Of a stretch of 62,017 nt of DNA, positions 9,117-60,643 are shown in pieces. The DNA is from Verrucomicrobiales bacterium (GTDB lineage: Bacteria > Verrucomicrobiota > Verrucomicrobiia > Verrucomicrobiales > DEV007): contig PAAG01000050.1 of assembly GCA_002698785.1 (NCBI GenBank), forward strand, positions 1-62,017, read 5' to 3'. Position 1 is the stretch's first letter. Every line of letters starts with the position of its first letter. The position numbers were made by a program, and so were the translations under genes. Under the pieces are notes generated by a model. That model ran no database searches. It saw only the letters and a program-made list of their open reading frames with translations, and was not told the origin of the DNA.

Positions 9117-9119
9117 ATC

Positions 9120-10858: not shown

Positions 10859-10898
10859 TATAACCAGCCCCCTACTACGGGAGCACTAAAATCTAACA

Positions 10899-12949: not shown

Positions 12950-12954
12950 AACTA

Positions 12955-13524
12955 ATGAAAGCTTCCCCTCACCGCCAAGCGATCGTTATCTTTGGAATTA
13001 TCATCCCGATTGTGTTCATCGGAGCCCTTCTGGGTGGTACTTTCTACGGAAAATCTAAGATCGCACACATACATAACGACAAAGTAGCGAAACTCGAGCG
13101 CTACGAAGCAGCCAAGGTTCAAGCGAACCAGCTAGAAGCCACAATGTCTGCCGACAATCGTCGTGAAAAGATGGAGTATTGGAACTCCAAGCTGGAGCAG
13201 GATTTCATTCAATCGGTAACCAGCAACTTGAATACAATTCTCGCGAAGTTCGAGCCTGATGTTCTTACGCGGACCGAAATGGGTCAGGCGCCTGGAGCAA
13301 GTAATATCGGACCAAAAACGGAAAACCCACATGTCCGTATTCAATTGAGCTTCGAAGGCGGCTACAAACCGATGCAATTGCTCCTCGCGGAATTAGAAGC
13401 GGAAATGCCCCAATTGATACTGGAGAGCCTCTCTATTCAACCCATTCCATCGAAGTCAGAACGAGATCTAGGAAAACTCAGATTCGGAGTCGTCTATCTC
13501 GGCTGGGAAAAACCAAAAGCATAA
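12955..13524 (+). CDS. PilO/GspM-like assembly protein
   Basis: The protein has 189 residues: a short cytoplasmic tail, one membrane helix (about 10-31, VIFGIIIPIVFIGALLGGTF), a coiled-coil region (about 38-75) and a C-terminal alpha/beta domain. This is the PilO/GspM layout. It starts 5 bases after the PilM/N-like gene and precedes the PilP-like gene. The call rests on topology and position; the sequence itself is too diverged for a firm family match. Confidence 0.55.
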   Translation: MKASPHRQAIVIFGIIIPIVFIGALLGGTFYGKSKIAHIHNDKVAKLERYEAAKVQANQLEATMSADNRREKMEYWNSKLEQDFIQSVTSNLNTILAKFEPDVLTRTEMGQAPGASNIGPKTENPHVRIQLSFEGGYKPMQLLLAELEAEMPQLILESLSIQPIPSKSERDLGKLRFGVVYLGWEKPKA

Positions 13525-13545
13525 ATTTTATAAAAAGGAACGGTC

Positions 13546-14154
13546 ATGAAACCTCTCATCACTATCTCGACCGCAATCGCAATGATCGCATCGCCTGCAT
13601 TCGCGCAGGAGGCAACACCACCCACCCCGCAAGGTGCGGAAGTTGAGCCTGCAACTCCGGCGGAAAGCACCGGAACGGCGAAAATCGTTCAACAACGTGC
13701 AGATTTTGTCGTTGCGAAAGTAAACAGCAACTCACGTGTCCGAGATCCATTCGGCATGATTATGGACCCGACGAATACTGTCGAAAATGGTCTTGCCGAT
13801 CAATACGCTGAGGAAGAAGAAACTGTCGTTCTCAATAATTCCTCCCTCAAGAACGCTCTGCAGGACTTACCCATCACGGGTGTTTACCCCAACCGTCAGA
13901 TGATTGTCCTGGGAGCTCGCGCATTCTCGAAAGGCGGACAATTTGGTATGAAACTCGATGAGCTCACAATTCGGCTCCGATTTGAAGGCATAAAGGGATC
14001 CGAAGTCTACTTCAAAGACATGGACACGCAGGAAGTGGCCACGGTCGATTTCAATCCCAAGCCGAAGGAATTCGAGGCAATCACGAAGGATACAAAGAAC
14101 AAACCAAGGGGTAACGGCATCCTCCCCATGAACGATTTATTTATAGTAAATTAA
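13546..14154 (+). CDS. Exported protein in the PilP/GspC position
   Basis: It has a signal peptide (MKPLITISTAIAMIASPAFA, cut near AQE), a Pro/Glu/Thr-rich linker, then a domain with RDPFGMI (near residue 67) and ITGVYPNRQMIVLGARAF (about 113-130). The order - linker, a DPF motif, a small beta domain with GV and hydrophobic strands - resembles PilP/GspC, which bridge the inner-membrane complex to the secretin. PilP itself is a lipoprotein, whereas here no lipobox is seen. A good ribosome-binding site (AAGGAA) precedes the ATG. Confidence 0.5.
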   Translation: MKPLITISTAIAMIASPAFAQEATPPTPQGAEVEPATPAESTGTAKIVQQRADFVVAKVNSNSRVRDPFGMIMDPTNTVENGLADQYAEEEETVVLNNSSLKNALQDLPITGVYPNRQMIVLGARAFSKGGQFGMKLDELTIRLRFEGIKGSEVYFKDMDTQEVATVDFNPKPKEFEAITKDTKNKPRGNGILPMNDLFIVN

Positions 14155-14239
14155 ACTTTCTTATAGAAAAATTTTGTAAAAGATGCTAAATTTCCATAAG
14201 TTTCATATCTTTTAAAGATCTCCTCGCCCAAACAACACA

Positions 14240-16522: not shown

Positions 16523-17193
16523 CCACGGCAGCCGCACAGCCTAGCACTAATCCCAATCCTACTCCACAATCTACAATAGCGCCAGACGCCGGCGCCTCCA
16601 CCGGAGGTGTGGGCGCCCCTAAAAAGGAGCAGGGATCACGGATTACATACGATTTGCTGAGAAGACAAATGTCTCACTGCGGCGAATACACTTACCAAGC
16701 CCTGAACAAGGTCGGTAAGCTGAGCCCAGAAGACACCAGCCGAATCTCACAGCAATATCTCAAGTATGTAAGCCAGGTGGAAAAAGGGAAGCCGTTCGAA
16801 GATGCGCTCTGCTTCCTTGTCATCCACGGATGGAAAAAATCAGAGATTGAAGCAAGAGACGTCATGTTGGAACTCACCAAAGGACTGATCCGTTATTCAA
16901 AAACGAAGATCACTCACCTGAGTTTCGCTCAACAGACAGAAACTCCCCTCGATTTTTACAACAACTTCCCTGCTATATCGGAAATCTGCCGACTGCTGAG
17001 TTGCCCAATCATCCAAGTAAACGAAAAGGATTTCTTTATGGTGACGTCAGTGAACCCCTTCACTGCCACCGCAGCTGCGAGGATTATTTCAAACGAAGTA
17101 GAAGCGGAAGTGGGACGAAAGCCCTTCGCATTTTCAACAACAACCGACCTGAACTCCTGGCGATACGCCTGTGAACGACACTTCGGAACATGA
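16519..17193 (+). CDS. Separate MshEN/GspE-N-like protein
   Basis: The protein has 224 residues: a Pro/Thr/Ala-rich first 35, then a helical region (about 40-110) and a C-terminal alpha/beta part (about 150-224). The last part reads like a GspE N-terminal (MshEN) half: CPIIQVNEKDFFMVTSVNPF, then AAARIISNEVEAEVGRKPF, and a final helix with YACERHFG. MshEN domains are normally fused to the PilB/GspE ATPase. Here the gene overlaps both the secretin stop and the ATPase start by 4 bases, which supports a split or duplicated ATPase N-terminal module. The assignment is by pattern and is tentative. Confidence 0.5.
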   Translation: MTTAAAQPSTNPNPTPQSTIAPDAGASTGGVGAPKKEQGSRITYDLLRRQMSHCGEYTYQALNKVGKLSPEDTSRISQQYLKYVSQVEKGKPFEDALCFLVIHGWKKSEIEARDVMLELTKGLIRYSKTKITHLSFAQQTETPLDFYNNFPAISEICRLLSCPIIQVNEKDFFMVTSVNPFTATAAARIISNEVEAEVGRKPFAFSTTTDLNSWRYACERHFGT

Positions 17194-18878
17194 ATCTCAA
17201 TATCGGAATCAATCTCAATGAGACGATCACTGATGCCATTGTGGATCAGTTGATCGAGCATGAGCCAAGCCTCGCAGAGAGATCCCGTGAAGATATTCCG
17301 CGTACCTGCACCGCGAACAGAATCCTCGCAAGTATCGGTGCGCTCACCTCCTTGCCCCTATTCCTCAAAATCAAAGACTTCGTAGATCGGTCTCTTCTTG
17401 AGGAATCTGACCCTTCCCTCCTCAACCGGGGAATGTTCGTGCCGTTGTGCAGAGATAACGAGCAAATTTACATCGCTGTAGCGAATCCCTGGGATCCAAC
17501 CGCCGAAGACACCTTCGGTCAGCAATATCCGGATCTCGAAGTGACCAAAGTTCTTGCCCCAGTCGCTGAGATAACTCAGGTGATTGAAACCGTCGCGAGA
17601 ACATCTGGACCTTCCCAATCCGACCTTGATGCGATCGAAGTCGATGAGCGAGGTGATGAAGTTCATGATTTTAACGTTACCGAGAAACACGAAGAGCCTT
17701 TGGCTCAGTTGGTGGCAAAGATAGTGTCTGACGGAGTAAAAAATCGAGCCTCCGATATTCACATCAAATGTGAAAAAGACCGGGTCCACTACAGTTACCG
17801 TATCGACGGTGACATGGGGGAAAAATTCGAGATTCCCATGAAGTTGAAAGACAGGGTCGACGCATTCCTGCTCAACCTCATGGGACTCGCCCCCGAAGAG
17901 CGAGCGAAACGCCCTGGAATCTCCGGCCGTTTCACCGTGAACTATCTGCGACGCCCTATCGATATGCGTTTTGAGCGTCACAAAACGTATCGAGGCTACC
18001 ACGTGACCATGCGTATCCTCGATAAGAGCCACTTTGAGGCAAAACTCGGGGTTGGTTCGCTCTCGTTCGATTCGGCGACCCTTTTCGAAATGGAAAAGGT
18101 GATGGCGATTCCTGCTGGAATTATCGTCATGTCAGGTCCGACAGGTTCGGGTAAATCGACAACCCTAAACGCGATGCTTCGCGAGTTGAACCGCCCGGAA
18201 GACAATATTCTCACTTTGGAGAACCCGGTTGAGGATGAAATCCAGGGCGTACTTCACTGCGACATTCGGCCGGAGGAGTTCAAACCGATGATCGCCAGTT
18301 TCATGCGTTCCGACCCTGACATCATTCTCATGGGTGAGGTTCGCGACTTTGACTCTGCGGAGCTAGCCATCGAAGCGGCGATTACCGGTCACAAAGTTCT
18401 TACTACGATTCACACCCCGAGAGCTTCACAAATTATTGAACGTTTTGAACAGCTCGGAATCGAGAGATGGAAAATTGCCCAGACACTGAAGGCAGCATGC
18501 GCCCAGCGTCTCGTGAAGCTTCTGTGCCCATACTGCAAGATCAAGAAGCCGGGACTGACAGAGCGTGAGATCAAGAAATTTAATCTTACAGAAGAATGGC
18601 GCGAAACGCCCGTCTGCCACAGGAATATAGATGGATGCAACGAATGTGGTAATCGAGGCTATCTCGGACGAACGGCGATTCTTGAAATCATCCCAATCAC
18701 TCCGGAATGGTCAGATGCACTCTCAAAAGGTGACCTGACTCCCTATGAGTTGGAACTTGCCGTTCGAGAGCAAGGTATTCTCCCGTCCCTTCGAAAGAGC
18801 GGACTTAAACTTGTGCGCGAAGGGCGGTCAGACCTCGATGCACTCCGTAAGGTAATTGATATGTCTACTTCTGACTAG
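17190..18878 (+). CDS. PilB/GspE-type assembly ATPase
   Basis: This 562-residue traffic ATPase has an N-terminal MshEN-like domain (about 1-140), Walker A GPTGSGKST (316-324), an Asp box (LENPVED), Walker B DPDIILMGEVRD (375-386), a His box (TTIHTPRA) and a zinc tetracysteine site CPYC...CNEC (446-449, 483-486). The zinc motif and length mark it as the extension/secretion ATPase, distinct from the PilT-like protein at 9179. It drives pilin assembly at the inner membrane with the platform protein encoded next. It overlaps the upstream gene by 4 bases. Confidence 0.93.
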   Translation: MNLNIGINLNETITDAIVDQLIEHEPSLAERSREDIPRTCTANRILASIGALTSLPLFLKIKDFVDRSLLEESDPSLLNRGMFVPLCRDNEQIYIAVANPWDPTAEDTFGQQYPDLEVTKVLAPVAEITQVIETVARTSGPSQSDLDAIEVDERGDEVHDFNVTEKHEEPLAQLVAKIVSDGVKNRASDIHIKCEKDRVHYSYRIDGDMGEKFEIPMKLKDRVDAFLLNLMGLAPEERAKRPGISGRFTVNYLRRPIDMRFERHKTYRGYHVTMRILDKSHFEAKLGVGSLSFDSATLFEMEKVMAIPAGIIVMSGPTGSGKSTTLNAMLRELNRPEDNILTLENPVEDEIQGVLHCDIRPEEFKPMIASFMRSDPDIILMGEVRDFDSAELAIEAAITGHKVLTTIHTPRASQIIERFEQLGIERWKIAQTLKAACAQRLVKLLCPYCKIKKPGLTEREIKKFNLTEEWRETPVCHRNIDGCNECGNRGYLGRTAILEIIPITPEWSDALSKGDLTPYELELAVREQGILPSLRKSGLKLVREGRSDLDALRKVIDMSTSD

Positions 18879-18895
18879 TCTCTCCCCTGCTACCC

Positions 18896-20074
18896 ATGAG
18901 CACCGAAACGAAAAATCAATCAGCTGCACAGGCAGCGCTTGCTGCCAGGATCGAGCAGAAAAACAAATCCATGGGAAACCACCATGGACAGAAGCGGGCT
19001 CTGTTTCAGAGAGACACTGAAAAGATCTCCAAATTTCCGAACAAAGAGCTCATTAAGCTGTGTCGGGGACTCGCCTCAATGCTTCGTGCGAACATCAACA
19101 CAGCAGACGCACTCCGCTATTATTCGGATGGCCACCCCTCACCAGTTGTGCGCTCCACCCTGAAAACAGTTCGCGACCACATTGAGGAAGGTCAGCCTGC
19201 ATACGCCGCTTTCGCAAAAACAAAACGATTCGAAGATAAATTCATTTCCCTGGTTCGCGCGGGAACAGACTCCGGACAACTGGATAAGGCCTTCGAGGCA
19301 ATTGCCGGTCGCCTGAAGAAAGAAGCGGAGTTCAAAGGGAAAATGCGAAAAGCAACGATGATGCCTGGAATCATTATCTTTGCGCTCATCATGCTCTTCA
19401 TCGGAGCGCAGCTAAAGATCATTCCAGAGATCGAGAAAATCATCAGTGATGTGGGCCAGGAGCCAGATACCCTCTCTGGAATTCTCTTCAAAATGAGTCA
19501 TATCACGAAGAAGGTCTGGATTCCGTTTGTGCTAGCACTGCTCGGAGCCGTCTTCTCATTCCTCTTCGTTGAGAAAGTGCGCAATGCAGTCACCTACTTC
19601 ATGATGGCCCGCTGGCGCCTACTTCGAAAACTCGTTATGGGAATGAGACAGCTTTTGTTCCTCGGTTCGATGGACATGCTGCACTCGAACGGGATCAATC
19701 TGGCGCGTTCGGTAGAAATCTCCGCTGAAGGTCTCAAGGGAACTCCGATGCATGACGAGCTTCTCGAAGCTGGCAAACGCTATATAGAAACGGGCCTTCC
19801 CTTCTCGGATGCCATGAGAAAGTTCACTTCTTGTGATCCGCAGGTGTCGCACCTGATTTCGATTGGTGAACGCTCATCCTCTCTAGGAACTCAACTCAAG
19901 CTTCTCACCCAGATGTATGAGGAAGATGTCGATCAAATCGTGAACGAATTCGCGACCATTGTGAACATTATCGTTCTCTTCTCCGCTGCGATCCTTATCA
20001 CAATGGTTTTCATCGGAGCATTCCTCCCAATCTTCCTGATGGGACCGAAGATGATGAATGGCCAGGGACTCTAA
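18896..20074 (+). CDS. PilC/GspF inner-membrane platform protein
   Basis: The protein has 392 residues. It has the duplicated T2SSF fold: a first cytoplasmic domain (about 50-155, with GLASMLRANINTADALRYY and LVRAGTDSGQLDKAF), membrane helices near 160-180 and 208-225, a second copy (about 250-350, MDMLHSNGINLARSVEISAE and SIGERSSSLGTQ), and a last helix near 360-385. The paired G-x-x-S/T-G-x-L motifs are diagnostic. It sits right after the PilB-like ATPase, its usual partner. Confidence 0.92.
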   Translation: MSTETKNQSAAQAALAARIEQKNKSMGNHHGQKRALFQRDTEKISKFPNKELIKLCRGLASMLRANINTADALRYYSDGHPSPVVRSTLKTVRDHIEEGQPAYAAFAKTKRFEDKFISLVRAGTDSGQLDKAFEAIAGRLKKEAEFKGKMRKATMMPGIIIFALIMLFIGAQLKIIPEIEKIISDVGQEPDTLSGILFKMSHITKKVWIPFVLALLGAVFSFLFVEKVRNAVTYFMMARWRLLRKLVMGMRQLLFLGSMDMLHSNGINLARSVEISAEGLKGTPMHDELLEAGKRYIETGLPFSDAMRKFTSCDPQVSHLISIGERSSSLGTQLKLLTQMYEEDVDQIVNEFATIVNIIVLFSAAILITMVFIGAFLPIFLMGPKMMNGQGL

Positions 20075-48591: not shown

Positions 48592-49830
48592 ATGCGACAT
48601 CTCGCAATAACTCTGTTCCTTTCCCTGTTTCTCTGGGGCTTCTTTGGCCAGGCAACGCTACAGGCAGAAGAACCGACAATCCTGCCTGAAATGGCCGAAG
48701 ATGGTAGACTTCCCGGAGTCGGACTGGCAGAGGGAGTCTCCCAGATCACTGGAGTGGCAATTTCGCCGCTTCTCGGTGTGAGTGGTGTTGGATGCTGGAA
48801 ATACTTTACGACAGCAGAAGAACAACGCCATCTTCTTCCCTGGTTTTCTCACCCGGCGGCATGGGGAATCGGATTTTCCATTCTGGGCCTTGTATTCTTG
48901 AAAGATTCCCTCGGCACAGGCGCACCAGCAATCCTCAAGAAGCCTCTCGACTTCATCGAACTGTTCGAAGACAAAATCAGTGCCGCCATCGCCGCCGGCA
49001 CGTTGGTTCCTTACATCGCCACTCAGATGGCAGAGCATTTTTCACCACCGGAAGTATCCGCACTTGGCTTTTCAGGAAACCTCTACCTCGCCGTCGCCCC
49101 AGCCCTCCTTGCCTGGATACTCATACCACTCTGTATTATGGGATTTTTCGCGGTGTGGCTCCTGAGCCATGCGGTGAATGTCTTGCTGTTGCTTTCTCCC
49201 TTCGGAGCCATCGACGCCGTGATGAAGCTTTCCAAGCTCGCGACGATCGTCATGATGATGTTATTGTATGCGATCAGCCCGGTTCTTGCGGCCATCTTGG
49301 CGGTCATCATCATTGTGATCGCTGTATTTCTGGCCCCCGCCACGTTCCGCTTGTGCGTGTTCGGGACAGTGATGTCTGGGGACTACCTTCGTTCCCTTGT
49401 CAGGAAATCAGATACCGTAAACACAGCCCGCTGTTTCCTTGCCCGGAAATCTGACTCAGGTCTAAAAGCACGAACGTTCGGCCGTGTGATTGCAACAGAG
49501 GAGGGAGAATTGTCATTCGTATCCCGCTTCTTCTTTTTTGGACATAAAAGGACCATTCCCCTTCCCTCGGCAGATCGACTCACCATTCATAGAGGAATAC
49601 TGTTTCCTTCTCTCACGACCGACTGCCCAAGCACGGATCGGAGAATTGCACTGGTTCATTTTCTCCCCAGGTATCGACATAGTATCAACTCACTGGGAGA
49701 CCTTCTTTCCGTCACTCAATTTACAGACAATCCTGTCGTAAAGGGAGTAAAAGCACTTTCTTCCTGGGCGAGAGGATCGGTGAAAGCATCACGCCTTCGA
49801 ATCTCAGGCCCCAAGCCGGAAACGAACTAA
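48592..49830 (+). CDS. Multi-pass membrane protein of unknown function
   Basis: The protein has 412 residues: signal peptide (MRHLAITLFLSLFLWGFFGQ), membrane helices near 88-103, 160-185, 188-210 and 220-252, then a soluble cytoplasmic domain from about 265. I recognise no family. It lies 48 bases after the VWA/GATase gene on the same strand and is likely the last gene of that operon. Its last 4 bases overlap the convergent selB stop. Confidence 0.7.
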   Translation: MRHLAITLFLSLFLWGFFGQATLQAEEPTILPEMAEDGRLPGVGLAEGVSQITGVAISPLLGVSGVGCWKYFTTAEEQRHLLPWFSHPAAWGIGFSILGLVFLKDSLGTGAPAILKKPLDFIELFEDKISAAIAAGTLVPYIATQMAEHFSPPEVSALGFSGNLYLAVAPALLAWILIPLCIMGFFAVWLLSHAVNVLLLLSPFGAIDAVMKLSKLATIVMMMLLYAISPVLAAILAVIIIVIAVFLAPATFRLCVFGTVMSGDYLRSLVRKSDTVNTARCFLARKSDSGLKARTFGRVIATEEGELSFVSRFFFFGHKRTIPLPSADRLTIHRGILFPSLTTDCPSTDRRIALVHFLPRYRHSINSLGDLLSVTQFTDNPVVKGVKALSSWARGSVKASRLRISGPKPETN

Positions 49831-51776
49831 GCTTTCAATCTCCGGTCGTCACCTTCCCTGACAGTAACCCCATCTGCGTCGAGCTTCTCAAGCAGCGGCA
49901 TCAGGATTCGTCTTACCGTTCCCGTATGCTGGCGAAGATCACTCGCTGTCGCTTTTCCGTGCTCTTTCAAATACGCAACGATCTCATCGCGGATTTTCTC
50001 AAACCCTTGGCTGGAAATTACAGTCTTCGGATCGAGATCAACCACCTCTCCAGTATGGGTAAGAAATCGTAGTGCTTTCTCCTCGTCCACATTCGTTGCA
50101 GTCTCGCCCTTGTTCGGCGGAGAAATGAGATCCGATGCGAGGCGTTTCCGGACCAGCTCCCCCGGCCGGACAAGATCGGGCGGCAGCATCGGCACATGAT
50201 CTTTGTGCCTGATGTTAGGACCGGCCTTAGCAAAGTCACCCGCGAGAAGCCCTTCCAGAACCATATCGAAAAACTTTGGAGCAGGCAGCTCGGGCTCCAT
50301 CAATACACGAAGGTCACGGAGCGGAAGCCCCAGTTGGTCAGGGTGTTTCCGATGGAGGTCTTGCACCTTCTCCGCCGCAAGACTGGATATGTTTTTCCAC
50401 CACGCCGCTTGAAACACCCAGTCGCCGTCTTGCCTCAGGATGCCGGCGCTTACAAGCTCTTCGGCACACTCCCGAATAGCGGCTTTACTGAAACGGGATT
50501 TTGCCAGCAACACATCAAGGTTAGCGACCATATCGCGCTTCAACTGCGATTCGACTAATATGTTCAGGTCTTCGGCATTACCCTTTCTCGCTTCCAGAAA
50601 CTCTCCTTGGAATGGTTTTCGAAAAGCACGCCGGTTCGCATCCTCATCCAACACAACACCACCAGCAAGGGTCATCCCCATGGACGCATCTCGAAGGACG
50701 AATCGATCGCCAACAAAAACATAAACCGGTTCTTTGAAGCGCACTTCCGCCACAGTTTCCTCCCCCGGTTCGAGTACCTTTCGGTCGCGGAAATGAATCC
50801 GACACGGAATGCCTAGACTACCATGATGGAACATCACTTGTCGTCCCGTGCGAATCGCCTTTTTTGATCGTCGCATACCCCGAATCTCCCGATCTGACTT
50901 TTCAATCACCACATCGATCGCAGTAACGGCTTCGCCAAGTTCAGGCAAGGTTAGAACATCGCCCCGTTCCACTCCGTCCCTCGCTCCTTTTTTGCGTTCA
51001 TCCTGGAGGCCAATGCCTGAAAGGTTTACCGCGGTTCGTGTTCCCGGCGGCACTTCTTTCGTATCGCTACCGTGAGACTGCGCGGTCCGAACATGAGCTG
51101 CTAACCCCGCAGGCTGGATCACATAGTTCTCACCGGCCCGAACCACACCATCCGCGAGCGTTCCGGTAATCACGGTCCCTACCCCCTTGATGGAAAAGGC
51201 ACGGTCCACGGGCAGCCGAGGCTTTCCGCAGTCATTTACCAGAGGCGCTTCGGTCAGCGTTGTCGAAATCACATCTCGTAGCTCCTCAATCCCCTCTCCC
51301 GTGTGTGATGAAACGGGCACAACGGGAATCGAATCCCACGGGCCGCCAAGCAGATTCTCTTTCACATCATCGAGCACAAGCTCAAGATCTTCCGCCAGAT
51401 CGCTCTTCGTCAGGGCTACGATCGCTCGTTTTACCCCGAGATATTGGAGGATCTGATAATGCTCCTCTGTCTGTGGCATCCACCCATCATCTGCCGCCAC
51501 GACAAACAGCGCCAAATCGATCGCTCCGACCCCTGCCACCATGTTCTTAACAAAATCAGCGTGACCAGGAACGTCAACCACCCCTAGGGCGAGTTCGTCG
51601 CCAGAATCATCAGTCGTGGGAAGCGACAACTGGGCAAAACCCAATTCGATCGTCATACCACGTTTCTTCTCTTCGGGCAGACGGTCGGGGTCTGTCCCAG
51701 TCAGGGCTTCGATCAGCGAACTCTTTCCGTGGTCAATATGTCCGGCCGTTCCAACGATGTAATGGCGATCAGGCAT
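49827..51776 (-). CDS. selB: Selenocysteine-specific translation elongation factor SelB
   Basis: SelB brings selenocysteinyl-tRNA to the ribosome at UGA codons with a SECIS. The 649-residue form from ATG 51776 (653 from a GTG at 51788) has an EF-Tu-like GTPase: G1 GHIDHGKS, G2 [11 protein letters not shown]3 DVPGH and G4 TKSD. Beta-barrel domains ([15 protein letters not shown] region) follow, and from about residue 380 on a C-terminal region of winged helices ([18 protein letters not shown] at the end) that binds the SECIS stem. Length matches known SelB (about 610-650). It is preceded by a DUF433/DUF5615 pair and a PhnE-type transporter rather than selA, and overlaps the convergent gene by 4 bases. 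Confidence 0.94.
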
Positions 51777-51791: not shown

Positions 51792-52121
51792 TTACCGAAT
51801 CTCAATCAATTGGTCTCCGTTAGAAATACGATTTTTTATGTCGTCAAGAAATGGAGCGAACCAATTCAATAACTCTCCCCGAGAACAGTTCCCGATCCGA
51901 AGCCACACAATTGATGGAGAAGTTTCGGCCAAAGATGCTCGAACTGGAAAGTCTTCATCTTTCGTCACAATCACAGAATTGTTGGCGATCGCATAATCCC
52001 AGATTTCGGAATCTGTAGCCTGCATCAATCCTACATCTGAGACATGCTCGGCCTCCTCATCCTGATCGCACAGAAAACGTGAGAGTGCAGGCGGTAATTG
52101 TGCATCCACGATCCAGCGCAT
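51792..52121 (-). CDS. DUF5615 PIN-like protein, putative toxin
   Basis: The protein has 109 residues. It has the DUF5615 pattern: MRWIVDAQLPPALSRFL, a TDSEIWDYAIANNSVIVTKDEDF block (acidic residues of a PIN-like active site), and a SIVWLRIGN strand. Such proteins are the nuclease partner of DUF433-type antitoxins. It starts 5 bases after the antitoxin stop and ends 3 bases before the GTG of selB. The pair sits inside the selenium island. Confidence 0.82.
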   Translation of the reverse strand: MRWIVDAQLPPALSRFLCDQDEEAEHVSDVGLMQATDSEIWDYAIANNSVIVTKDEDFPVRASLAETSPSIVWLRIGNCSRGELLNWFAPFLDDIKNRISNGDQLIEIR

Positions 52122-52126
52122 TGGAC

Positions 52127-52363
52127 TCAGGCAGCACTTTCCGAAACAGTGAAAACCGGATGATCAATCTGCTCAGCAGCATATTGAATCGACGCATCAA
52201 TATCCTCAGGCTCCAGATACGGATAATCTTCAAGAATCTCTTCCCTCGAAACATCCGAAGCGAGAAGTTCGAGAATGTCTTTCACTCGAATCCGCATTCC
52301 TCTAATGCAAGGTCGCCCGCCACATTTCTCGGGGTCAATCGTGATTCGATCTCTAAAATTCAT
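52127..52363 (-). CDS. DUF433 protein, putative antitoxin
   Basis: The protein has 78 residues from the ATG at 52363, which is the usual DUF433 start (MNFRDRITIDPEKCGGRPCI). The family motif GGRPCIRGMRI is complete, followed by helices with VKDILELLASDVSREEILEDYP. DUF433 proteins are DNA-binding antitoxins paired with PIN-like or Mut7-C-like toxins. An alternative ATG further upstream gives an unusual basic extension and is less likely. Confidence 0.85.
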   Translation of the reverse strand: MNFRDRITIDPEKCGGRPCIRGMRIRVKDILELLASDVSREEILEDYPYLEPEDIDASIQYAAEQIDHPVFTVSESAA

Positions 52364-52425
52364 ATAATGAGATAATAGACTGATTTTTCTTTTTTCGCAC
52401 GTCTCTTTCACGCAGTTCTAGTTAG

Positions 52426-53343
52426 TCACCGTAGTCTGCGGCGGAGGAAAGTCGAGAATAGGTCACCAATCAGAATCACTGAAGCGCCAAGTAAGATGTA
52501 AAAGAATACCCGGTCCCAATGAAACCCTTTCTCGAGCATGATGAGTTTTCCCAGCGTCAGTAATCCCAGCATCCCCAACACCGTCGCATCTTTCATACAG
52601 GTCTCCCAGCGATAGAAAAAGTAGATCAGGAATCGATTAAAATTGGCAGGAAAAATCCGGGAGAGATAAGCGCTGAAACGCCCTCCACCAGCCGCAATCG
52701 ATTGTTCCGTAGCTTCCACATCCGCATTCTCCACCACCTCGCCCCACAACCGCCCAAGAATACCAAAATTGTGAATCGCCAGAGCCAGGACAAGCGGCCA
52801 AACCTGCAGTCCAAGTAGTGAGAGAAGCAAAAACGCGATCAAATACTCCGGAACCGACCTCGCCAGAACAAACGAAAACCGAACGACCGGTCCCACGACT
52901 CGCCAGACCGTTTGTGAGAACTGATTCCGACGCCCTCCCCAGATTCCCATCGGATTCGAGTTGGCAAGCTTACGACTCGATAGCGGCAACCAGGGCGATA
53001 CAAACAACGCAGACAGAATAATGGCAGCAGAAGCGATCCCAAATGTAATCAGCAAAGCTTCCAGTCCCTTGTCAGTAAACAGCTCCCAGGCCCAGGGAAT
53101 CGCATCTCCCCAGTTGCCTGATTTATCTACGGGAGCAGGAACCAACTCTCCCACAAAATTCTTAAAATTAGTCCACCTTCGCTCGGCCGAAAGCCTCCCC
53201 AGCAAAGGACCGCCCGAAGTCCATGCCCATACGATTGCTCCGAGCACGACGAATCCACTGAACCGCAGGAAAACGCTCTTCGTTCGATTGCGCCGCAGTT
53301 CCACGACGCGCTGATAGCGATCTGTCAGGGTCGTGGTTGCCAT
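52426..53343 (-). CDS. PhnE-type ABC permease 2 (phosphonate-type; predicted selenium-oxyanion transport)
   Basis: The protein has 305 residues from ATG 53343 (the start MATTTLTDRYQ; earlier in-frame codons lie inside the previous gene). It has about six membrane helices, including VFLRFSGFVVLGAIVWAW and ALLITFGIASAAIILSALFV, and an EAA-type loop, ENADVEATEQSIAAGGG, that contacts the ATPase. It overlaps the first permease gene by 19 bases, so the two are translationally coupled and probably form a heterodimeric channel. The last gene of the transport cluster. Confidence 0.85.
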   Translation of the reverse strand: MATTTLTDRYQRVVELRRNRTKSVFLRFSGFVVLGAIVWAWTSGGPLLGRLSAERRWTNFKNFVGELVPAPVDKSGNWGDAIPWAWELFTDKGLEALLITFGIASAAIILSALFVSPWLPLSSRKLANSNPMGIWGGRRNQFSQTVWRVVGPVVRFSFVLARSVPEYLIAFLLLSLLGLQVWPLVLALAIHNFGILGRLWGEVVENADVEATEQSIAAGGGRFSAYLSRIFPANFNRFLIYFFYRWETCMKDATVLGMLGLLTLGKLIMLEKGFHWDRVFFYILLGASVILIGDLFSTFLRRRLR

Positions 53344-54224
53344 GCCTCGGTTGTAGGATGAAGACGTTTTCGAATGGCCGCCCCCCAGAAGTCGACCAAA
53401 ACAATCAATGCGATTAACAGATACAGGTAAGTCCACACCTCCCGGTAGTAAGACTCCCCATACGAAAACTCGATATACAGCCCGATCGTCTCGATTCCGA
53501 CAAAACCAAGAACAGCAGACGACCGCAGGGCACATTCAAAACGATAAAAGCTGTATGTAATCAGATTCGGAAGAGCTCTCGGAAAAATCCCAACCAGAAA
53601 AGTCTGCACAGGACCATGCCCGATCGCTTTCAAAGCCGACGCAGCATCGCGAGCCTCTTCGTCAATCAACTCAGAGAAAACCTTCCCCAAGGTTCCGGAA
53701 AACGGAAGAGCCAGCGCCATCATGCCCGCCAGCGGAGAAACACCCATCGCAGAAAGAAACAGCAACGCCCAGATCAATTCGTGGATCGAACGAGCGAGAC
53801 TCATCCAGAATCGGCAGATCGTGAAAACGGTCTGCAGAAAAAGCCGAAGTCCCCTTCCACATGGTTCAGGCCACCAGGCCGAAGAACCGAAAAAACCAAG
53901 AAACAACGCGGTAGGAACCGCAATACTCATCGCCCCAAAAGCAAACCTCAGCGTCAGGAGCAGCCCTTTGAACCCCTTTACCCAGATTGGATCGGCGTCA
54001 TCAGGCACATTCGGATCCTGATAATCCGTAGCCGGATGCAACGCCGCTGCAAAAAACTTCCCCGTCCTCTCCCAATGCGTTGAGTCAGGCGGCAGCAGCC
54101 CTTTGGGAGTCAATCCTAGCGCCCACGCACAGATAAAAAAGACAACGATAAGCCCCAGAACGACCCAGCGGCGACCGCTTGTCCGACCAGTTCGAATAAA
54201 AGGGTCTGGAGATCCTGACGACAT
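53325..54224 (-). CDS. PhnE-type ABC permease 1 (phosphonate-type; predicted selenium-oxyanion transport)
   Basis: The protein has 299 residues from the ATG at 54224 (MSSGSPDP), 7 bases after the upstream stop. It has about six membrane helices, first near 20-38 (WVVLGLIVVFFICAWALG), and the EAA loop IDEEARDAASALKAIGHGP. It resembles the PhnE family. The neighbours are a PhnC-like ATPase, a PhnD-like lipoprotein and a second PhnE-like permease. Phosphonate genes (phnG-M, phnX) are absent, whereas sel genes flank both ends, so a selenium substrate is favoured over phosphonate. Confidence 0.85.
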   Translation of the reverse strand: MSSGSPDPFIRTGRTSGRRWVVLGLIVVFFICAWALGLTPKGLLPPDSTHWERTGKFFAAALHPATDYQDPNVPDDADPIWVKGFKGLLLTLRFAFGAMSIAVPTALFLGFFGSSAWWPEPCGRGLRLFLQTVFTICRFWMSLARSIHELIWALLFLSAMGVSPLAGMMALALPFSGTLGKVFSELIDEEARDAASALKAIGHGPVQTFLVGIFPRALPNLITYSFYRFECALRSSAVLGFVGIETIGLYIEFSYGESYYREVWTYLYLLIALIVLVDFWGAAIRKRLHPTTEAWQPRP

Positions 54225-54231
54225 AATTTCT

Positions 54232-56073
54232 CTACTCGGCTCCTGGCAGCGGCATACCTGCGGGATCCAAAACCGAAATCTCAAACAGTATTAGTTTAAC
54301 GCTATCTCCTACGGACGATTTTCGAATCGCACAATAGCGTTTCTCGTGGATATCCGATGAAACCAACGGATACGAAATCCGAATAGAGTTAGATTCATTC
54401 CCGGTCAGACGCCGAAACTCCACCGCATAATGTTTCCCCGTCGGGTAAATCCACGCTCGAACACTATGAGTTCCTTCGTTTAGCTCTAAGGCTTTTTCCC
54501 GAATTGTATTGAAACCCTCGCTGCTGGGAGACTTCAATCGGTCAGGGCTCCGGGGGAGGATAGAATACAATTCAGCAAACCGTTCGGCATCGATTTTCAC
54601 CACCTCAAAACCATCTTCACAAACGCTCTCGCTCCCTTGAAGCATCGCACTCGTCTCCGTCCCACCAACGGAACCTGACCAGGCACGAACGAAGATCGTA
54701 AAGGGAAGCCCTCTCCCCAATACATTGGGATGACAAAGCGTATTAAACTGATAAATCCTGTCACGCGTCCCCACTATATTCACTCCTACGTCATAGGTCG
54801 TACTCCGTCCCGAATCTATTTCCACGACCTCCATGTCGATCCCGCGGTTTTGCAGATACTGAATCGGAGTCAATTCCGAAGGTCCCTCTCCTACCTTCAG
54901 CCAAGCCCGAGATAACGTATACCTCGCTTTCGTCACCGGAGCCGCAGGAATCATGCCCACCAAAGGCCCCGAAAAAATGGAGAAGAGAAATGCACCGGAG
55001 ACAGACAATACCGAAACGAACGCAAATCGACTCTTCGTCGTTGGGTAGCCTCGAATCAACACCCACGCACCTGACAACAAGACAACACGAAGAATACATG
55101 AAGGCACCAAGTCCCTCCACATCATCTCCCCAGGGTAGAATCTCGGAAACCACATCGGAAAGCCATCAAATAAGGCCACAGCAAGATATATTGTACCTGC
55201 CGCAACCACAGCACGCCACTGATGCCGCCACCCCACTGCAAATGTAACGAAAATGAGAAGAACGACTGCGTCCAACATCGCCAGAGAGTATGGCACTCGG
55301 AAATCGGCAAAGTGTGCACACTGAATCGACACAGTTCGACCTCCATCCGATCCAGTCTCCACAGTAGACCAGAAACCAATCGGCAAAATGCCAGAGTCAG
55401 CCATTCCGAACACGTCTCTTCTGCCATTCCCGACAATCGACTCACCACGATTGTCGAAAACAACAGGCCAAAAACCACCATACCCACCCGCCCACGTAAA
55501 CGATGAGGGAACTTGGAAATCATTTGCCTCAGCCTTCACTTCGACTCCCTCCCGAACAACGTACTTTCGACTCTTGACCTTGACGCCTTTGATTCCCTCC
55601 AAGCGTCGGAGCGCAGGGGCCAACTCGATCGCAGCTCCCGAGTGCCCAATCGGAATCGCGTCCTCCGAAAGTGCCCTCCCTCCTTGAAAGGCCATATTCA
55701 TGCTCAATCTCCATTTGGCTCGCTTGAGATCCCAACCTTCCAGGCCAAAAATATCCTCGGGAGGCTCGGCGATAGGCTGCGTTAGGGCCAGCATGTGCCA
55801 GTGCTCCAAAATCTTCTTCCGATGTCGGCGGGACATCGCAGGATGCATCTCGTTGAATAAAGGGATCTCTCGATAAACCCCGTCCATTCGATCAAGCTCA
55901 GAAGCAGCCTCCGGCGAGATCGTCACCTCTATCAACTGAACCCATCTGCACAAGAAAATCCCTTGGAGGAGTGCCTTAACCGAGTCGAACCGAGTCATCG
56001 CAATGCAATCTCCAGACACCATCAGTGTAATCAGCGCCAAGAATACACACCAGTATCTGGATATTGCTTCCAT
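54232..56073 (-). CDS. Unknown multi-pass membrane protein inside the selenium/PhnCDE-type operon
   Basis: The protein has 613 residues. A first helix (8-24, VFLALITLMVSGDCIA) is followed by a soluble region (25-260), four helices near 263-281, 287-303, 325-341 and 349-376, then a second soluble domain (380-613). The first soluble region has no motif I can name; the second contains IDMEVVEIDSGRSTTYDVGV and RLTGNESNSIRISYPLVS, beta-rich. Its ATG shares one base with the phnC-type stop (TAATG), so it is coupled to the ATPase gene, and the first permease gene follows by 7 bases. I do not recognise a family. It is either a regulator or sensor of the transporter or an extra transport part. Base composition is like the neighbours. 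Confidence 0.7.
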   Translation of the reverse strand: MEAISRYWCVFLALITLMVSGDCIAMTRFDSVKALLQGIFLCRWVQLIEVTISPEAASELDRMDGVYREIPLFNEMHPAMSRRHRKKILEHWHMLALTQPIAEPPEDIFGLEGWDLKRAKWRLSMNMAFQGGRALSEDAIPIGHSGAAIELAPALRRLEGIKGVKVKSRKYVVREGVEVKAEANDFQVPSSFTWAGGYGGFWPVVFDNRGESIVGNGRRDVFGMADSGILPIGFWSTVETGSDGGRTVSIQCAHFADFRVPYSLAMLDAVVLLIFVTFAVGWRHQWRAVVAAGTIYLAVALFDGFPMWFPRFYPGEMMWRDLVPSCILRVVLLSGAWVLIRGYPTTKSRFAFVSVLSVSGAFLFSIFSGPLVGMIPAAPVTKARYTLSRAWLKVGEGPSELTPIQYLQNRGIDMEVVEIDSGRSTTYDVGVNIVGTRDRIYQFNTLCHPNVLGRGLPFTIFVRAWSGSVGGTETSAMLQGSESVCEDGFEVVKIDAERFAELYSILPRSPDRLKSPSSEGFNTIREKALELNEGTHSVRAWIYPTGKHYAVEFRRLTGNESNSIRISYPLVSSDIHEKRYCAIRKSSVGDSVKLILFEISVLDPAGMPLPGAE

Positions 56074-56849
56074 TAGGCATCCACCATCATTTCCTCGTCA
56101 CTGAGATCGAACAGTTCGGTCAACGTATCGCCAGGTATTCTCTCGGGATCTGAATCAAAAGCCATCTTCCCAGCACGCAGACCCACCAGCCTCGGAAAAT
56201 ACTCCTTCGCCAGATCCACGTGGTGAAGGCTCACACACAAAACGAATCCAAACTCTTTCGACAGTTCACATAACAAAGCCACCGTGTCCCTCGCACGGGC
56301 AGGGTCGACACTCGAAACCGGCTCATCAGCAAGCAGCGCATCCGGTTTTTGAAAAAGCGCTCGGGCAATCGCGACTCGCTGCTGCTGCCCGCCGGAAAGG
56401 CTCGATGTTCGAGAATACAATTTCTCCTCGATACCGACACGTTCGAGAATCTTGTGGATCTCCAGGACGTCTTCTTTCGATGGTATCAGCAAATCTCTTA
56501 CTGATCGAAGAGCCCCCCTCTTTCCCCCTCGGCCGAGAATGATATTCTGAACCACGGTCAAATTGGGAACCAACCCCAGGTGCTGCGGGATAGTCGCCAG
56601 CCGTGAGCGCAGTTTCCTCAGCTCTTTTGCCGAGAATTGGGAAATGTCATCCCCAAAAACAGAAACGCGCCCCGCGTCCGGAGCGCGCATCGTGTTCATC
56701 AGTCGCAGCAGCGTTGTCTTTCCGCTACCGCTTGGGCCAATCAAGGCCACTTGTTCCCCCTGTCCGACCTCCAGACTTACATCGTCGACCGCTGCCAGAT
56801 CACCGAATCGGCAAGTAACAGCATCGAGAGAAAACGCAGGATCGGACAT
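56073..56849 (-). CDS. PhnC-type ABC ATPase (predicted selenium-oxyanion transport)
   Basis: The protein has 258 residues with Walker A GPSGSGKTT (38-46), Q-loop, signature LSGGQ (151-155), Walker B ALLADEP (171-177), D-loop SSVDP and a switch His (SLHHVDLA). The closest well-known family is PhnC of phosphonate uptake. It starts 16 bases after the PhnD-type gene. It powers the transporter formed with the two PhnE-type permeases. Confidence 0.88.
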   Translation of the reverse strand: MSDPAFSLDAVTCRFGDLAAVDDVSLEVGQGEQVALIGPSGSGKTTLLRLMNTMRAPDAGRVSVFGDDISQFSAKELRKLRSRLATIPQHLGLVPNLTVVQNIILGRGGKRGALRSVRDLLIPSKEDVLEIHKILERVGIEEKLYSRTSSLSGGQQQRVAIARALFQKPDALLADEPVSSVDPARARDTVALLCELSKEFGFVLCVSLHHVDLAKEYFPRLVGLRAGKMAFDSDPERIPGDTLTELFDLSDEEMMVDA

Positions 56850-56865
56850 GAGGAAACACGAGACA

Positions 56866-57807
56866 TCAGCTGTCGATCAAACCGAGTTTGACCGCAGTTT
56901 CTTTGATCCCGTCGAAATCTTCATTCTTCGCAGGAATGATGGCTTCGCGATTGATCGCCTTCAGCGTATCAGAATCAGCAGGCGCTTCAATAAGAGCCGT
57001 CTGCACCTTTCCGATAAATCCTTCACCGAATGCCTTCTCCACTTCTGGATGGATCGTGAAGTTGTAGTCAGCATAGAAAGGAGTCGTCCAGATCTTCACG
57101 GTGTTCTCCGCGATTTTTGGATCTTCCGCTACGAGCGAGTCATAGGTCTTGTAGTTCAGTGCACCGGTCTGGTAGGTGCCGTCAGCAACCGCATTTGCAG
57201 TCGCCACGTGGCCACCAGTTGCCTGGTATCCAGGCTCTGTAGCGAACCACTCATCAGGAGCAACGCCGCCATTGTTCTGCATGATGAAGAACGTAGGCAT
57301 AAGACGACCGGATGTAGATCCGGGAGACCCAAATGTGAAGGTCATGTCTTTGATCGCGGCAGGGAAATCAGCAGACTCTTTCAAGCCAGTCGATTTGTTC
57401 GCTATAAAGTATGACTTGTACTTTGGATCGGCTTTCCCCTGAGCAATCGCCTGCGATCCTTCGACCGCCATGCGTGCCTGAACGCCGGAGAGTCCACCGA
57501 ACCAGACGAGATGAACCTCGCCGTTCTTGAACTTGGTGACAGAGTCAGCGTAATCCTTGGAGAAAACAAACTCAGCAGGAACGCCAAGCTTCTCGGAAAG
57601 GTATTCAGCAAGTTTATCAAACTTCGCTTTCTGATCCGTGATCTTCTCGTCGGGAATCGCCGAGATGTATAGAGTCGCTTCAGCAGCATCGCTGGAAGCG
57701 CTGTCATTGTTGGAGTCGGGCGTGGCTGCATCATCACCGCCACAGCCGACAATGGCTAGAGCAGTTACCGCAGCCAGACCGACGCGGAAAAGGTGTCTTT
57801 TCAGCAT
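56866..57807 (-). CDS. PhnD-type substrate-binding lipoprotein (putative selenate/selenite-binding)
   Basis: The protein has 313 residues. The ATG at 57807 gives a lipoprotein signal (MLKRHLFRVGLAAVTALAIVGC; lipobox AIVGC). The two-lobed fold is of the phosphate/phosphite/phosphonate-binding family: LYISAIPDEK, NGEVHLVWFGGLSGVQA, FTFGSPGSTSGRLMP with the Ser-rich anion-binding loop, and DGTYQTGALNYKTY. From memory, protein-family databases define a clade of these as putative selenate-binding because it occurs beside selD and the SenB-like glycosyltransferase; the context here fits exactly. Substrate not proven; phosphite, phosphonate or selenite are alternatives. It follows selA by 108 bases with a structured leader at 57855. 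Confidence 0.86.
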   Translation of the reverse strand: MLKRHLFRVGLAAVTALAIVGCGGDDAATPDSNNDSASSDAAEATLYISAIPDEKITDQKAKFDKLAEYLSEKLGVPAEFVFSKDYADSVTKFKNGEVHLVWFGGLSGVQARMAVEGSQAIAQGKADPKYKSYFIANKSTGLKESADFPAAIKDMTFTFGSPGSTSGRLMPTFFIMQNNGGVAPDEWFATEPGYQATGGHVATANAVADGTYQTGALNYKTYDSLVAEDPKIAENTVKIWTTPFYADYNFTIHPEVEKAFGEGFIGKVQTALIEAPADSDTLKAINREAIIPAKNEDFDGIKETAVKLGLIDS

Positions 57808-57854
57808 CGTTGGTATGGTTGGTTTATTTGGTATTCTTTGATCATTTCTGAACA

Positions 57855-57899
57855 ATCCAGAATACGAACCGCAAGGCATTGCGGATTGCAATTCTGGAT
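57855..57899 (-). promoter_or_regulatory. Structured leader before the PhnD-type gene
   Basis: A two-tier stem-loop: ATCCAGAAT pairs with ATTCTGGAT (57855-57863 with 57891-57899, 9 bp), then a 5/6-base internal loop, then CCGCAA with TTGCGG (57869-57874 with 57879-57884, 6 bp) and a 4-base loop. It lies in the selA-phnD gap, transcribed on the minus strand, and is not followed by a T-run. So it is more likely a control element or mRNA stabiliser than a terminator. Confidence 0.5.
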
Positions 57900-57915
57900 G
57901 GGACGACTCCACTCT

Positions 57916-59328
57916 TCAGAGCTTTCCGAAAATTGCGAGAATATTCTTTGTGAGAATCTCGTCTTGCTCGGGGAAAATCGTGCGTAGATCCAGCCTATAT
58001 CGATCTTCCGCAGTATACCCAATTACCGGCATCTCCCCTTTCCGCAAAAGATCGGCAAACTTCGCTAGCCCCATCGTTTCAGGCTTCAAATCCAGAGCCA
58101 GAGAAGGTATCTCCGCCTTCGGCATCGTCCCGCCACCACACCGGGCAATCGTCTCTACCAAGCCGACCTGCAGCCCCTCGATCGCAGTCAAATGCTCCAC
58201 CAACGCTTCGGCTCGCGGGCGAAGATCATCCTCCACCTTTGCCGAAAGCATTCTCGCCAGAGGAAGCTCCGGCTTCTCTCCTTGTCCTTTTGACAGATAC
58301 TCCAGAACCGTTTCCTGAAGCCCGGTCAAAATCAGTTTATCGCACCGCAGCGCTCGGAAAAACGGCTCTTTCTTAATTCCCGCCACGAGATCTGCCCGTC
58401 CCGCAATGATCCCCGCTTGGGGCCCACCAAAAAGCTTGTCCCCACTCACACATACCAGATCCACACCGCGCTTCAGCACCTCAGTGGCTGTCGGCTCATG
58501 AGGAATCGGAGCCAGAGACTCGGTCGGAATCATCGCCCCACTGCCCAGGTCTTCCACGACAGGCAGTCCATGCGCTTTCCCCAGCTCAACCAACTCTTCC
58601 GTCGTTGGCTCGTCAGTGAAACCGTCCATCCAGAAGTTCGAACGATGCACCTTCAGCAGCATCCCCGTATTCGGCGTGATCGCCTTTTCGTAGTCTTCCA
58701 GCGAAGTCTTATTCGTCGCCCCCACCTCCACCAGTTTCGCCCCGCTCACCTCCATGATTTCTGGCACACGGAAGCCGCCACCGATCTCCACGAGCTCCCC
58801 GCGGGAAATAATCACCTCGTTCTTTTCCCCATTTGCCAGATGCTTCAAAATCAGGATCAAAGCCGCAGCGCAATTATTTGAAACCGTAGCCGACTCGGCT
58901 TCGATCAGCGTCGCCAGACAGGTTTCCAGAAAACCACCGCGCTTCCCCCTTTCGCCCGTATCGAGATTCATCTCGATGTTGTTGTAATATTTCCCAACCG
59001 AGGTCAGAGCCGCCACCGTCTTATCACTTAGCGGAGAGCGCCCCATATTCGTATGGATACAAACCCCCGTCCCGTTGATGGCCGGATGAATACGTGACCG
59101 ATACAGAGAATCGATCTTCTCCCGAATCATCGATACCGTTTCATCAAATTCCCCTACCTCCAGCGTCCCGGCCTTAACACCCTGACGCATCTCCTCGACC
59201 GTCTTCCTCACCAGATCCGTGATCAACGGCTGCGGAACAGGCGGCAACTCATCCCCCTTCTCAAGGGCGACAAGCACTTTATCGACCGCGGGGATGCGGC
59301 TGAAAGGATTGGGGCTTTTTGAGGTCAT
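57916..59328 (-). CDS. selA: L-seryl-tRNA(Sec) selenium transferase (SelA)
   Basis: SelA turns seryl-tRNA(Sec) into selenocysteinyl-tRNA(Sec) using selenophosphate. The 470-residue PLP protein matches bacterial SelA in length. It shows IHPAINGTGVCIHTNMGRSPL near residue 80, YYNNIEMNLDTGERGKRG, NNCAAALILIL and the PLP lysine block SGDKLFGGPQAG, with Lys298 the expected internal aldimine. It ends 108 bases before the PhnD-type gene and is preceded by selD 241 bases upstream on the same strand. Its product is used by SelB at 49827. Confidence 0.95.
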   Translation of the reverse strand: MTSKSPNPFSRIPAVDKVLVALEKGDELPPVPQPLITDLVRKTVEEMRQGVKAGTLEVGEFDETVSMIREKIDSLYRSRIHPAINGTGVCIHTNMGRSPLSDKTVAALTSVGKYYNNIEMNLDTGERGKRGGFLETCLATLIEAESATVSNNCAAALILILKHLANGEKNEVIISRGELVEIGGGFRVPEIMEVSGAKLVEVGATNKTSLEDYEKAITPNTGMLLKVHRSNFWMDGFTDEPTTEELVELGKAHGLPVVEDLGSGAMIPTESLAPIPHEPTATEVLKRGVDLVCVSGDKLFGGPQAGIIAGRADLVAGIKKEPFFRALRCDKLILTGLQETVLEYLSKGQGEKPELPLARMLSAKVEDDLRPRAEALVEHLTAIEGLQVGLVETIARCGGGTMPKAEIPSLALDLKPETMGLAKFADLLRKGEMPVIGYTAEDRYRLDLRTIFPEQDEILTKNILAIFGKL

Positions 59329-59569: not shown

Positions 59570-60643
59570 CTAGAGAACCGAAATCAGCGAACTTCCTTCG
59601 TCTGCCGGGAGAATGCGGCCTACCACCGCCTTCGATAAGGTCGCCTCAGCATCGCAGATCGCAAGCACCGCATCGAGGTTCTCTTCTGGCACAGCGCAGA
59701 GCAACCCTCCACTCGTCTGCGCGTCAGCGAGGATGAACTTCATCGCCTCAGACACACCCTCACCCCAGCTCACGTCAGGGTCCGATGTTCGCAAGTTCTC
59801 CTTCGTTCCACCCGGCACGCAGCCCTCCTCCTCGATCAATCGAACGATCTCCGGATCGATGACCGGCATCTCGGCGGAATTCAACTCCGCCTGCACACCG
59901 CTCGATTTACAGAGCGAACGCAAATGCCCCAGCAGGCCGAAACCAGTCACATCAGTGGCGCACTTCACCAGCCCTTGCTCAGCCATCTTCTGGCCCGGCT
60001 TGTTCAGACGACTCATCAATTCCACACCTCGATCGACCAACTCACCAGTCACCAGGCCCCGCTTGATGCCCGTCGTTAAAATCCCCGTCCCAAGCGGTTT
60101 CGTCAGGATCAAAATATCCCCCGCCTTCGCATCCGCATTGGTGATCATGCGTTTCGGATGCACGAGGCCCGTCACCGAGAGACCATAGATCGGCTCTGGA
60201 TTCTTAATCGAATGCCCACCTGCGAGAGCACACTCCGCCTCTTTCACCTTATCCGCCCCACCTTTGAGAATCTCGTTGATGATCTCCTCGCTCAAAATAT
60301 CCGCCGGCATCCCCACGACATTCATCGCCGTCACCGGACGACCACCCATCGCATACACATCCGAAAGCGAGTTCGTCGCCGCGATTTGCCCATACAGGTA
60401 GGGATCATCAACGATCGGTGTGAAAAAGTCGATCGTCTGCACCATCGCGAGATCGTCGTTCAAAATGTACACGGCGGCATCGTCGGATGTGCTTGATCCG
60501 ACTACCAGATTCGAATCTTCGTGCTGACTGAGCCCACGCAAGACCTGCGTGAGTGCCTCCTGGCTAAGCTTGGAGGCTCAACCCGCGCACGACGACAGCG
60601 AAGTAAGCTTGATGGGATCTTCTGACATGGATAGTTCTGACAT
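59570..60643 (-). CDS. selD: Selenide, water dikinase (SelD), selenocysteine-containing
   Basis: SelD makes selenophosphate from selenide and ATP. From the ATG at 60643 the frame runs 357 residues with one in-frame TGA at codon 22 (60580-60578), read here as selenocysteine. The local sequence is SSCAG-U-ASKL, which aligns with the GAGCGCKI region of E. coli SelD, so U replaces catalytic Cys17 and Lys25 is the essential Lys20. The rest is a full AIRS-like SelD: STSDDAAVYIL, QTIDFFTPIVDDP, ALAGGHSIKNPEPIYGLSVTG, DVTGFGLLGHL and AQTSGGLLCAVP. A conventional caller would start after the TGA and lose the active site. A second ATG (60628) is possible. A SECIS-like stem follows the TGA immediately. 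Confidence 0.93.
60550..60580 (-). promoter_or_regulatory. SECIS-like stem-loop after the selD TGA
   Basis: Read on the minus strand, the six bases right after TGA (GCCTCC, 60577-60572) pair with GGAGGC (60560-60555), enclosing an 11-base loop. TGA itself (60580-60578) can pair with TCA (60552-60550) across a 2-base bulge, for a 9-bp interrupted stem. A stem starting at the UGA, inside the coding region, is what bacterial SelB needs. The loop sequence does not clearly show the usual E. coli G-U pattern, so the exact contact with SelB is unknown. Confidence 0.65.

Follow-up and report, generated by a model that had tools for sequence, protein, structure and literature searches.

A putative selenate transporter operon with an inserted gene

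The minus strand of the window (the whole stretch of DNA that was analysed, 62,017 nucleotides, from source genome G000) carries a selenium cluster with the gene order selD-selA-phnD-phnC-ORF613-phnE1-phnE2-DUF433/DUF5615 pair-selB. Its features are as follows.

59570..60643, minus strand: selD; with Sec at the in-frame TGA (60578-60580), its product would itself be a selenoprotein
57916..59328, minus strand: selA (PF03841)
56866..57807, minus strand: phnD-like substrate-binding protein (TIGR04553, 265.2 bits, cut-off 250); start codon inferred
56073..56849, minus strand: phnC-like ATPase (ABC_tran; TIGR02315, 233.5 bits, under the cut-off of 266.1)
54232..56073, minus strand: ORF613, a 613-aa orphan membrane protein with an ATG start, between phnC and phnE1
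53325..54224, minus strand: phnE1 permease (BPD_transp_1; TIGR01097, 168.5 bits, under the cut-off of 216.7)
52426..53343, minus strand: phnE2 permease (BPD_transp_1; TIGR01097, 103.5 bits, under the cut-off); start inferred
51792..52411, minus strand: DUF433/DUF5615 gene pair, a second insertion in the cluster, between phnE2 and selB
49827..51776, minus strand: selB; start inferred

The phnE2 and phnE1 genes overlap by 19 bases. We take the DUF433/DUF5615 pair to be toxin-antitoxin-like, with DUF5615 being PIN-like.

The selenium ABC operon setting that was proposed in the original prediction has become firmer. The phnD-like protein passes the curated cut-off of TIGR04553 (265.2 vs 250 bits), a model named 'putative selenate ABC transporter substrate-binding protein', and the source genome has a tRNA-Sec match of 59 bits, over the cut-off. 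Since the tRNA-Sec search returned matches in all 14 control genomes, over the cut-off in 5, only the over-cut-off match was counted. Among relatives, selA adjoins phnD in 21 and phnE2 adjoins selB in 12. This recurrent position of a TIGR04553-type transporter next to sel genes makes the transporter (52426-59328 region) a strong candidate for a dedicated selenium importer. A putative transporter set between selA and selB makes the operon of interest in itself. According to two reviews, a specific high-affinity transporter for selenium is still unidentified in prokaryotes (PMC9312934, PMC13188914), and an ABC ATPase near orphan selD genes has already been noted in an earlier report (PMC5029168).

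The TGA at 60578-60580 (minus strand) in selD falls in the sequence SSCAGUASK, and the listed open reading frame starts only downstream of it. The U in this motif presumably occupies the position of the active-site Cys in SelD, and the selD product is itself probably a selenoprotein.

ORF613 is a real gene of no recognized family

The reading frame at 54232-56073 had been described as 613 residues long, with a TAATG on the phnC side and a 7-base gap to phnE1, which is exact: the ATG of ORF613 uses the last A of the phnC stop codon TAA, and 7 bases separate the TAG stop of ORF613 from the ATG of phnE1. The frame contains no internal stops, against 12-28 in the other five frames. Its GC content (0.514) and GC3 (0.54) are similar to those of the neighbouring genes. 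The codon-bias score of 0.013 is higher than in all five other frames of the same stretch, and in a comparison of 13 genes, 10 of which also formed the reference, it is the second lowest, with only the DUF5615 gene lower. In view of the open frame, the neighbour-like composition and a 612-aa counterpart in another genome, ORF613 is a real coding gene.

That it belongs to no known family and is membrane-bound, as expected from the start, was borne out by searches and by hydropathy, respectively. No match at E≤1 was found in Pfam or NCBIfam, the transporter families of both included, nor in PADLOC or PHROGs, and a profile search of solved structures with ORF613 returned 0 matches at E≤10.

Domain layout and predicted topology

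By hydropathy, the soluble stretches of ORF613 are about 235 (first) and 240 (second) residues long and flank a helical region at residues ~263-371. The parts of the protein are:

55999..56073, minus strand: residues 1-25, signal-peptide-like hydrophobic N-terminus (hydropathy)
55288..55998, minus strand: residues 26-262, N-terminal soluble domain, predicted to be periplasmic; the only convincing relative found is the G023 protein described below
54961..55287, minus strand: residues 263-371, cluster of four transmembrane helices joined by short loops (hydropathy)
54235..54960, minus strand: residues 372-613, C-terminal soluble domain, a putative strongly diverged, gate-less secretin-derived module
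54250..54270, minus strand: residues 602-608, C-terminal LDPAGMP motif, an ending also present in the secretins of the genus

The order of a soluble region, four helices and a second soluble region in the original prediction stands by hydropathy, and the beta-rich character of the second soluble domain shows up in low-confidence AlphaFold models only. These models, the structure prediction that had been suggested as a check, were run with two-row alignments for ORF613 and its G023 homologue; at mean pLDDT values of 38.7 and 40.7, respectively, they provide no usable fold. Reading the N-terminal domain as another secretin-like one was rejected, with hhalign probabilities below 1%.

The two inside loops, between helices 1-2 and 3-4, are each 7 residues long in ORF613, going by helix boundaries that we set ourselves; the corresponding lengths for the G023 protein are 6 and 9. 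These loops contain 2 and 1 K/R residues in ORF613 and 2 and 4 in the G023 protein; the outside loop of ORF613 has 2 K/R and 2 D/E, giving a modest positive-inside signal. Under the positive-inside rule, the K/R residues of the inside loops suggest that both soluble domains are periplasmic and sit on a four-helix anchor. Cytoplasmic loops of 7 residues leave little for contact with an ATPase or for holding a cofactor, and a protein of the predicted form could not accommodate a signalling or enzyme domain in the cytoplasm.

A single homologue outside the selenium context

The only homologue found is a protein of 612 aa in G023 (Verrucomicrobiales bacterium AH-707-L10, contig JAOFXR010000034.1), from the same genus, with approximately 20% identity. 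With one homologue at 20% identity, dN/dS is not computable. The BLASTP score between the two proteins is 40.0 bits, as compared to 28.9 for the best of 1000 segment-preserving shuffles. The best-aligned stretch, residues 120-310, takes in part of the helix region; a second collinear segment lies at the extreme C-terminus, and the layout is common to both proteins (613 and 612 aa). The resemblance thus beats chance and points to homology.

Reading the initial 20 kb of the 29.9-kb contig for ORFs of 130 aa or more placed the G023 gene next to a spermidine-synthase-like membrane gene on one side and a DUF1080-like gene on the other, with no selenium or transporter gene beside it. The transporter operon of G023 itself is located on another contig, where phnC and phnE1 are adjacent. 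The sole homologue found therefore lies outside a selenium or transporter setting, an outcome that the original prediction had itself named as refuting the transporter role proposed for ORF613.

The family, which here means two sequences, appears to be rare. With a full-length profile of the two sequences, which could miss a divergent homologue, full-length matches were obtained in 2/33 genomes of the genus (G000 and G023). When the profile covered only the N-terminal and membrane half, it matched 2/386 genomes of the order, plus three short, weak fragments (E 5e-4 to 8e-3), two of which have internal stops; in 387 genomes of the phylum it detected no further genome besides one order fragment, with at most 5 first-look candidates scored per genome in both searches. 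Scanning genome contigs with two short peptide patterns gave one locus, in G023, and no family match was found in viral contigs, phage records or plasmid records.

The phnC-phnE1 junction in relatives

To compare the operon across relatives, phnD and phnE1 were used as probes in 56 genomes, G000 included, and spacings were measured on the fetched loci. In 23 genomes besides G000 (18 of the same genus and 5 of other genera) phnC and phnE1 are on one contig. ORF613 is present between them in 0/23, in agreement with the initial view that such a gene is not normal in this operon type. The two genes are adjacent in 21/23, with a spacing of -55 to +171 bp. The remaining two, G013 and G027, have a spacing of approximately 860 bp, filled by an insert unrelated to ORF613. 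In G013 (L134, G013:C87, 2378-3175) the insert is an antisense DUF4058 gene (1.5e-50), and the G027 insert (G027:C219) has nearly the same length and starting bases.

Several loci were left out of the 23. The genes are on separate contigs in G024, G016 and G018, where unrelated genes follow phnC and phnE1 is on a different contig; in G002 the contig ends inside phnC, and G040 offered only a weak phnE match (2.1e-4) and no phnC in the locus. G038 and G045 gave weak, partial phnE matches, and the stretches separating their aligned phnC and phnE parts, unaligned ends included, measure 539 and 464 bp, respectively, which is too short for ORF613. The phnC-phnE1 junction repeatedly breaks or admits unrelated genes. 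At the other insertion site in the window, the phnE2-selB gap is 18-45 bp in 12/12 measured relatives, and the DUF433/DUF5615 pair is absent there.

The transporter proteins of G000 have mean identities to those of 15 relatives of 81% (phnD), 67% (phnC), 77% (phnE1) and 65% (phnE2), inside the range of these relatives and near its low end in all four cases; the phnE2 value of G031 in this comparison (26%) stems from a contig break. Since the proteins fall within the range of the relatives, the operon has not decayed through the insertion of ORF613.

One explanation for the position of ORF613 is that it acts, in this species alone, as an accessory subunit of the selenate transporter, i.e., a periplasmic docking or capture protein that would be anchored by the PhnE permeases and co-translated with them. 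The tight coupling on both sides, the periplasmic domains expected from the topology and the intact transporter genes, within the range of relatives, all fit this role, but ORF613 is missing from the operon in 23/23 relatives, including G023 with its homologue elsewhere, and we consider the explanation unlikely. ORF613 is encoded inside a PhnCDE-type putative selenate transporter operon (TIGR04553), yet is not a conserved member of it. Given its absence from orthologous operons, there is no support for regarding it as a standing transporter component, and the same absence (23/23), together with the 7-residue loops, leaves the suggested functions as substrate sensor, transporter regulator, channel or oxidoreductase part without support. 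Tight translational coupling made ORF613 resemble a transporter part; the orthologous operons show an insertion. A selenium-context family for ORF613 was also rejected, with the G023 homologue outside sel and transporter genes and 0/23 operons carrying the gene.

Proposed relation of the C-terminal domain to pilus secretins

At positions of the second soluble domain, the profile of the ORF613/G023 pair matches other proteins, with some match in 30/33 genomes of the genus. The matched frames are 861-1002 codons long in 25/33 genomes, and the one in G032 is gate-less. One such protein was run against NCBIfam and scored 991 bits (cut-off 750) as a pilus secretin of the Amuc_1098 family. This family of type IV pilus secretins in Verrucomicrobia (NF042912) includes PilQ of Akkermansia muciniphila (PMC4960237).

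Residues 362-474 of the G023 homologue correspond to positions 357-479 of NF042912 (1.8e-7; 29.6 bits vs a cut-off of 750), and the protein scores 90.4 bits (1.2e-26) with an HMM built on 11 gate-less modules from this genus; it has no Pfam match at E≤1. Judged by these profile matches, the C-terminal domain of the G023 homologue derives from an Amuc_1098-type pilus secretin, with the gate left out. With the same HMM, ORF613 reached 6.8 bits (E 0.38), which is short of significance on its own but higher than any of 2000 shuffles (best 2.1). Comparison of its C-terminal domain alone with three secretin-type profiles gave hhalign probabilities of 41, 14 and 11%, the best alignment spanning 36 columns, and the 99% obtained for the two-row profile comes from the G023 row. 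The Secretin models PF00263 and NF042912 did not match ORF613 at E≤1.

A DNA pattern for [FILM]DPAGMP, built from the ORF613 motif, matched 30 times in 33 genomes, and the reversed control 0 times. Going by the 60 residues ahead of the motif, 21 of the matches are secretins with a gate and 7 are secretin-like proteins without one; the other two are ORF613 and its G023 homologue. The GGLI gate segment precedes the motif in 21/30 of the proteins and is missing there in ORF613 and the G023 protein; a scripted GGL flag also fired for the G023 protein and for a single gate-less protein, at other places in their frames. The DPAGMP ending common to the secretins and the G023 protein strengthens the link for ORF613, and we infer that its C-terminal domain is of secretin origin too.

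The likeness to the Amuc_1098 secretin is located in residues 362-474 of the G023 homologue and in the DPAGMP ending, which follows the last strand in both. ORF613 shares this ending and the layout of its homologue, but unlike the secretin it lacks both a gate (GGLIRED...) and a match to the Secretin Pfam model, has four membrane helices in its chain and carries a shorter module. Gate-less proteins of the genus with LysM or M56 parts combine an N-domain, a gate-less beta-domain and a DPAG ending, an arrangement that is clear in the G023 homologue and putative in ORF613. Neither the N-terminal domain nor the cluster of four helices seen in ORF613 occurs in the gate-less frames that were read, and the peptidase of the M56 fusions is missing in ORF613.

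The gate-less proteins carry LysM, TPR- and STN-like parts, with LysM over the cut-off in the two that were tested and STN below it. G024 has two fusions in which an M56 peptidase is followed by a secretin-derived module, which is whole in one (L127, G024:C151, 4121-6634) and restricted to its start in the other (L128, G024:C201, 4611-6611), where the frame ends early. In BlaR1, an external sensor domain occupies the position taken by the secretin-derived module in the G024 fusions. This Verrucomicrobiales genus thus appears to reuse the N- and beta-domains of a pilus secretin, without the gate, in several architectures. In G032 (L122, G032:C7, 2829-8573), two adjoining frames were read as containing three gate-less secretin modules in total, with LysM- and STN-like ends. 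A gate-less secretin gene of G024 (G024:C289) lies approximately 4.9 kb from phnC on the phnD contig; it was rejected as a parallel to ORF613 because it is separated from phnC by several opposite-strand genes, among them an apparent Suf cluster. The literature found on selenium transport, the Amuc_1098 secretin and Verrucomicrobia fusions, for which ORF613 was not itself the query, contained no ORF613-like proteins or secretin-M56 fusions.

The shared module raises the question whether ORF613 serves the pilus. As an accessory of the secretin or type IV pilus, its module would contact the Amuc_1098-type secretin or the surrounding peptidoglycan, similar to the LysM-bearing proteins of the genus. 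The presence of the module in both gate-bearing secretins and gate-less LysM proteins argues for such a function. On the other hand, no pilus gene was read beside ORF613 in the selenium cluster or in 20 kb of the G023 contig, and full-length matches are confined to 2/33 genomes of the genus, vs 21/33 for gate-bearing secretins with the same ending. A pilus function therefore seems improbable to us.

ORF613 as a probable passenger of the operon

We favour, with moderate confidence, the interpretation that ORF613 is a rare and fast-evolving envelope protein, so far found in one genus only, that was inserted at a tolerated junction, and that it is a passenger rather than a transporter subunit. 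The gene would have entered between phnC and phnE1 of an already existing selenate-type ABC operon, leaving the operon unbroken. Its N-terminal signal would direct export, the four helices would hold the protein in the inner membrane, and the two soluble domains would be exposed to the periplasm. The C-terminal domain may descend from the pilus secretin of the same genus, with its N-domain and beta-domain retained and the gate lost; such a gate-less module should no longer make an outer-membrane pore. ORF613 could then serve in the periplasm as a binding or adaptor protein anchored in the inner membrane, and its position would imply that it is produced along with the transporter from a common transcript. 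The gene, its place in the operon, its absence from the operons of relatives, the homologue at another locus and the secretin origin of that homologue's C-terminal domain are shown; passenger status, topology, adaptor role and a secretin origin in ORF613 itself are inferred. The precise TAATG coupling and the 613 uninterrupted codons point to a gene that is translated and kept, which is not required of a pure passenger.

A more speculative possibility, which we regard as decidedly unlikely, is that a secretin-derived periplasmic module on a four-helix anchor in the inner membrane became, solely in this lineage, an additional component of a dedicated selenium-oxyanion transporter. If true, ORF613 could hold the transporter beside an outer-membrane or peptidoglycan partner, and would represent a new way to wire an ABC importer into the envelope.

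The extreme divergence, the codon-bias score that is second lowest of 13 and a contamination estimate of 4.97% for the source genome could also indicate a decaying, non-functional gene or a chimeric artefact of assembly or binning. The full-length frame, the neighbour-like composition, the clean junctions within one 62-kb contig and a homologue of nearly equal length make this very unlikely. A relic of a BlaR1-like sensor, with four helices and an external module and with the M56 peptidase lost, is brought to mind by the two G024 frames that join such a peptidase to a whole or partial secretin-derived module, but it is most improbable given that ORF613 has no Pfam M56 match at E≤1 and no HExxH on reading the sequence, and that its clustered helices with 7-residue inside loops cannot fit a cytoplasmic protease domain.

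Elsewhere in the window, at 4246-20074, the open reading frames were read as a cluster resembling a type IV pilus or type II secretion system, in which ATPases and a PilC-like gene occur. This cluster has its own secretin-like protein of 760 aa, encoded at 14240-16522.
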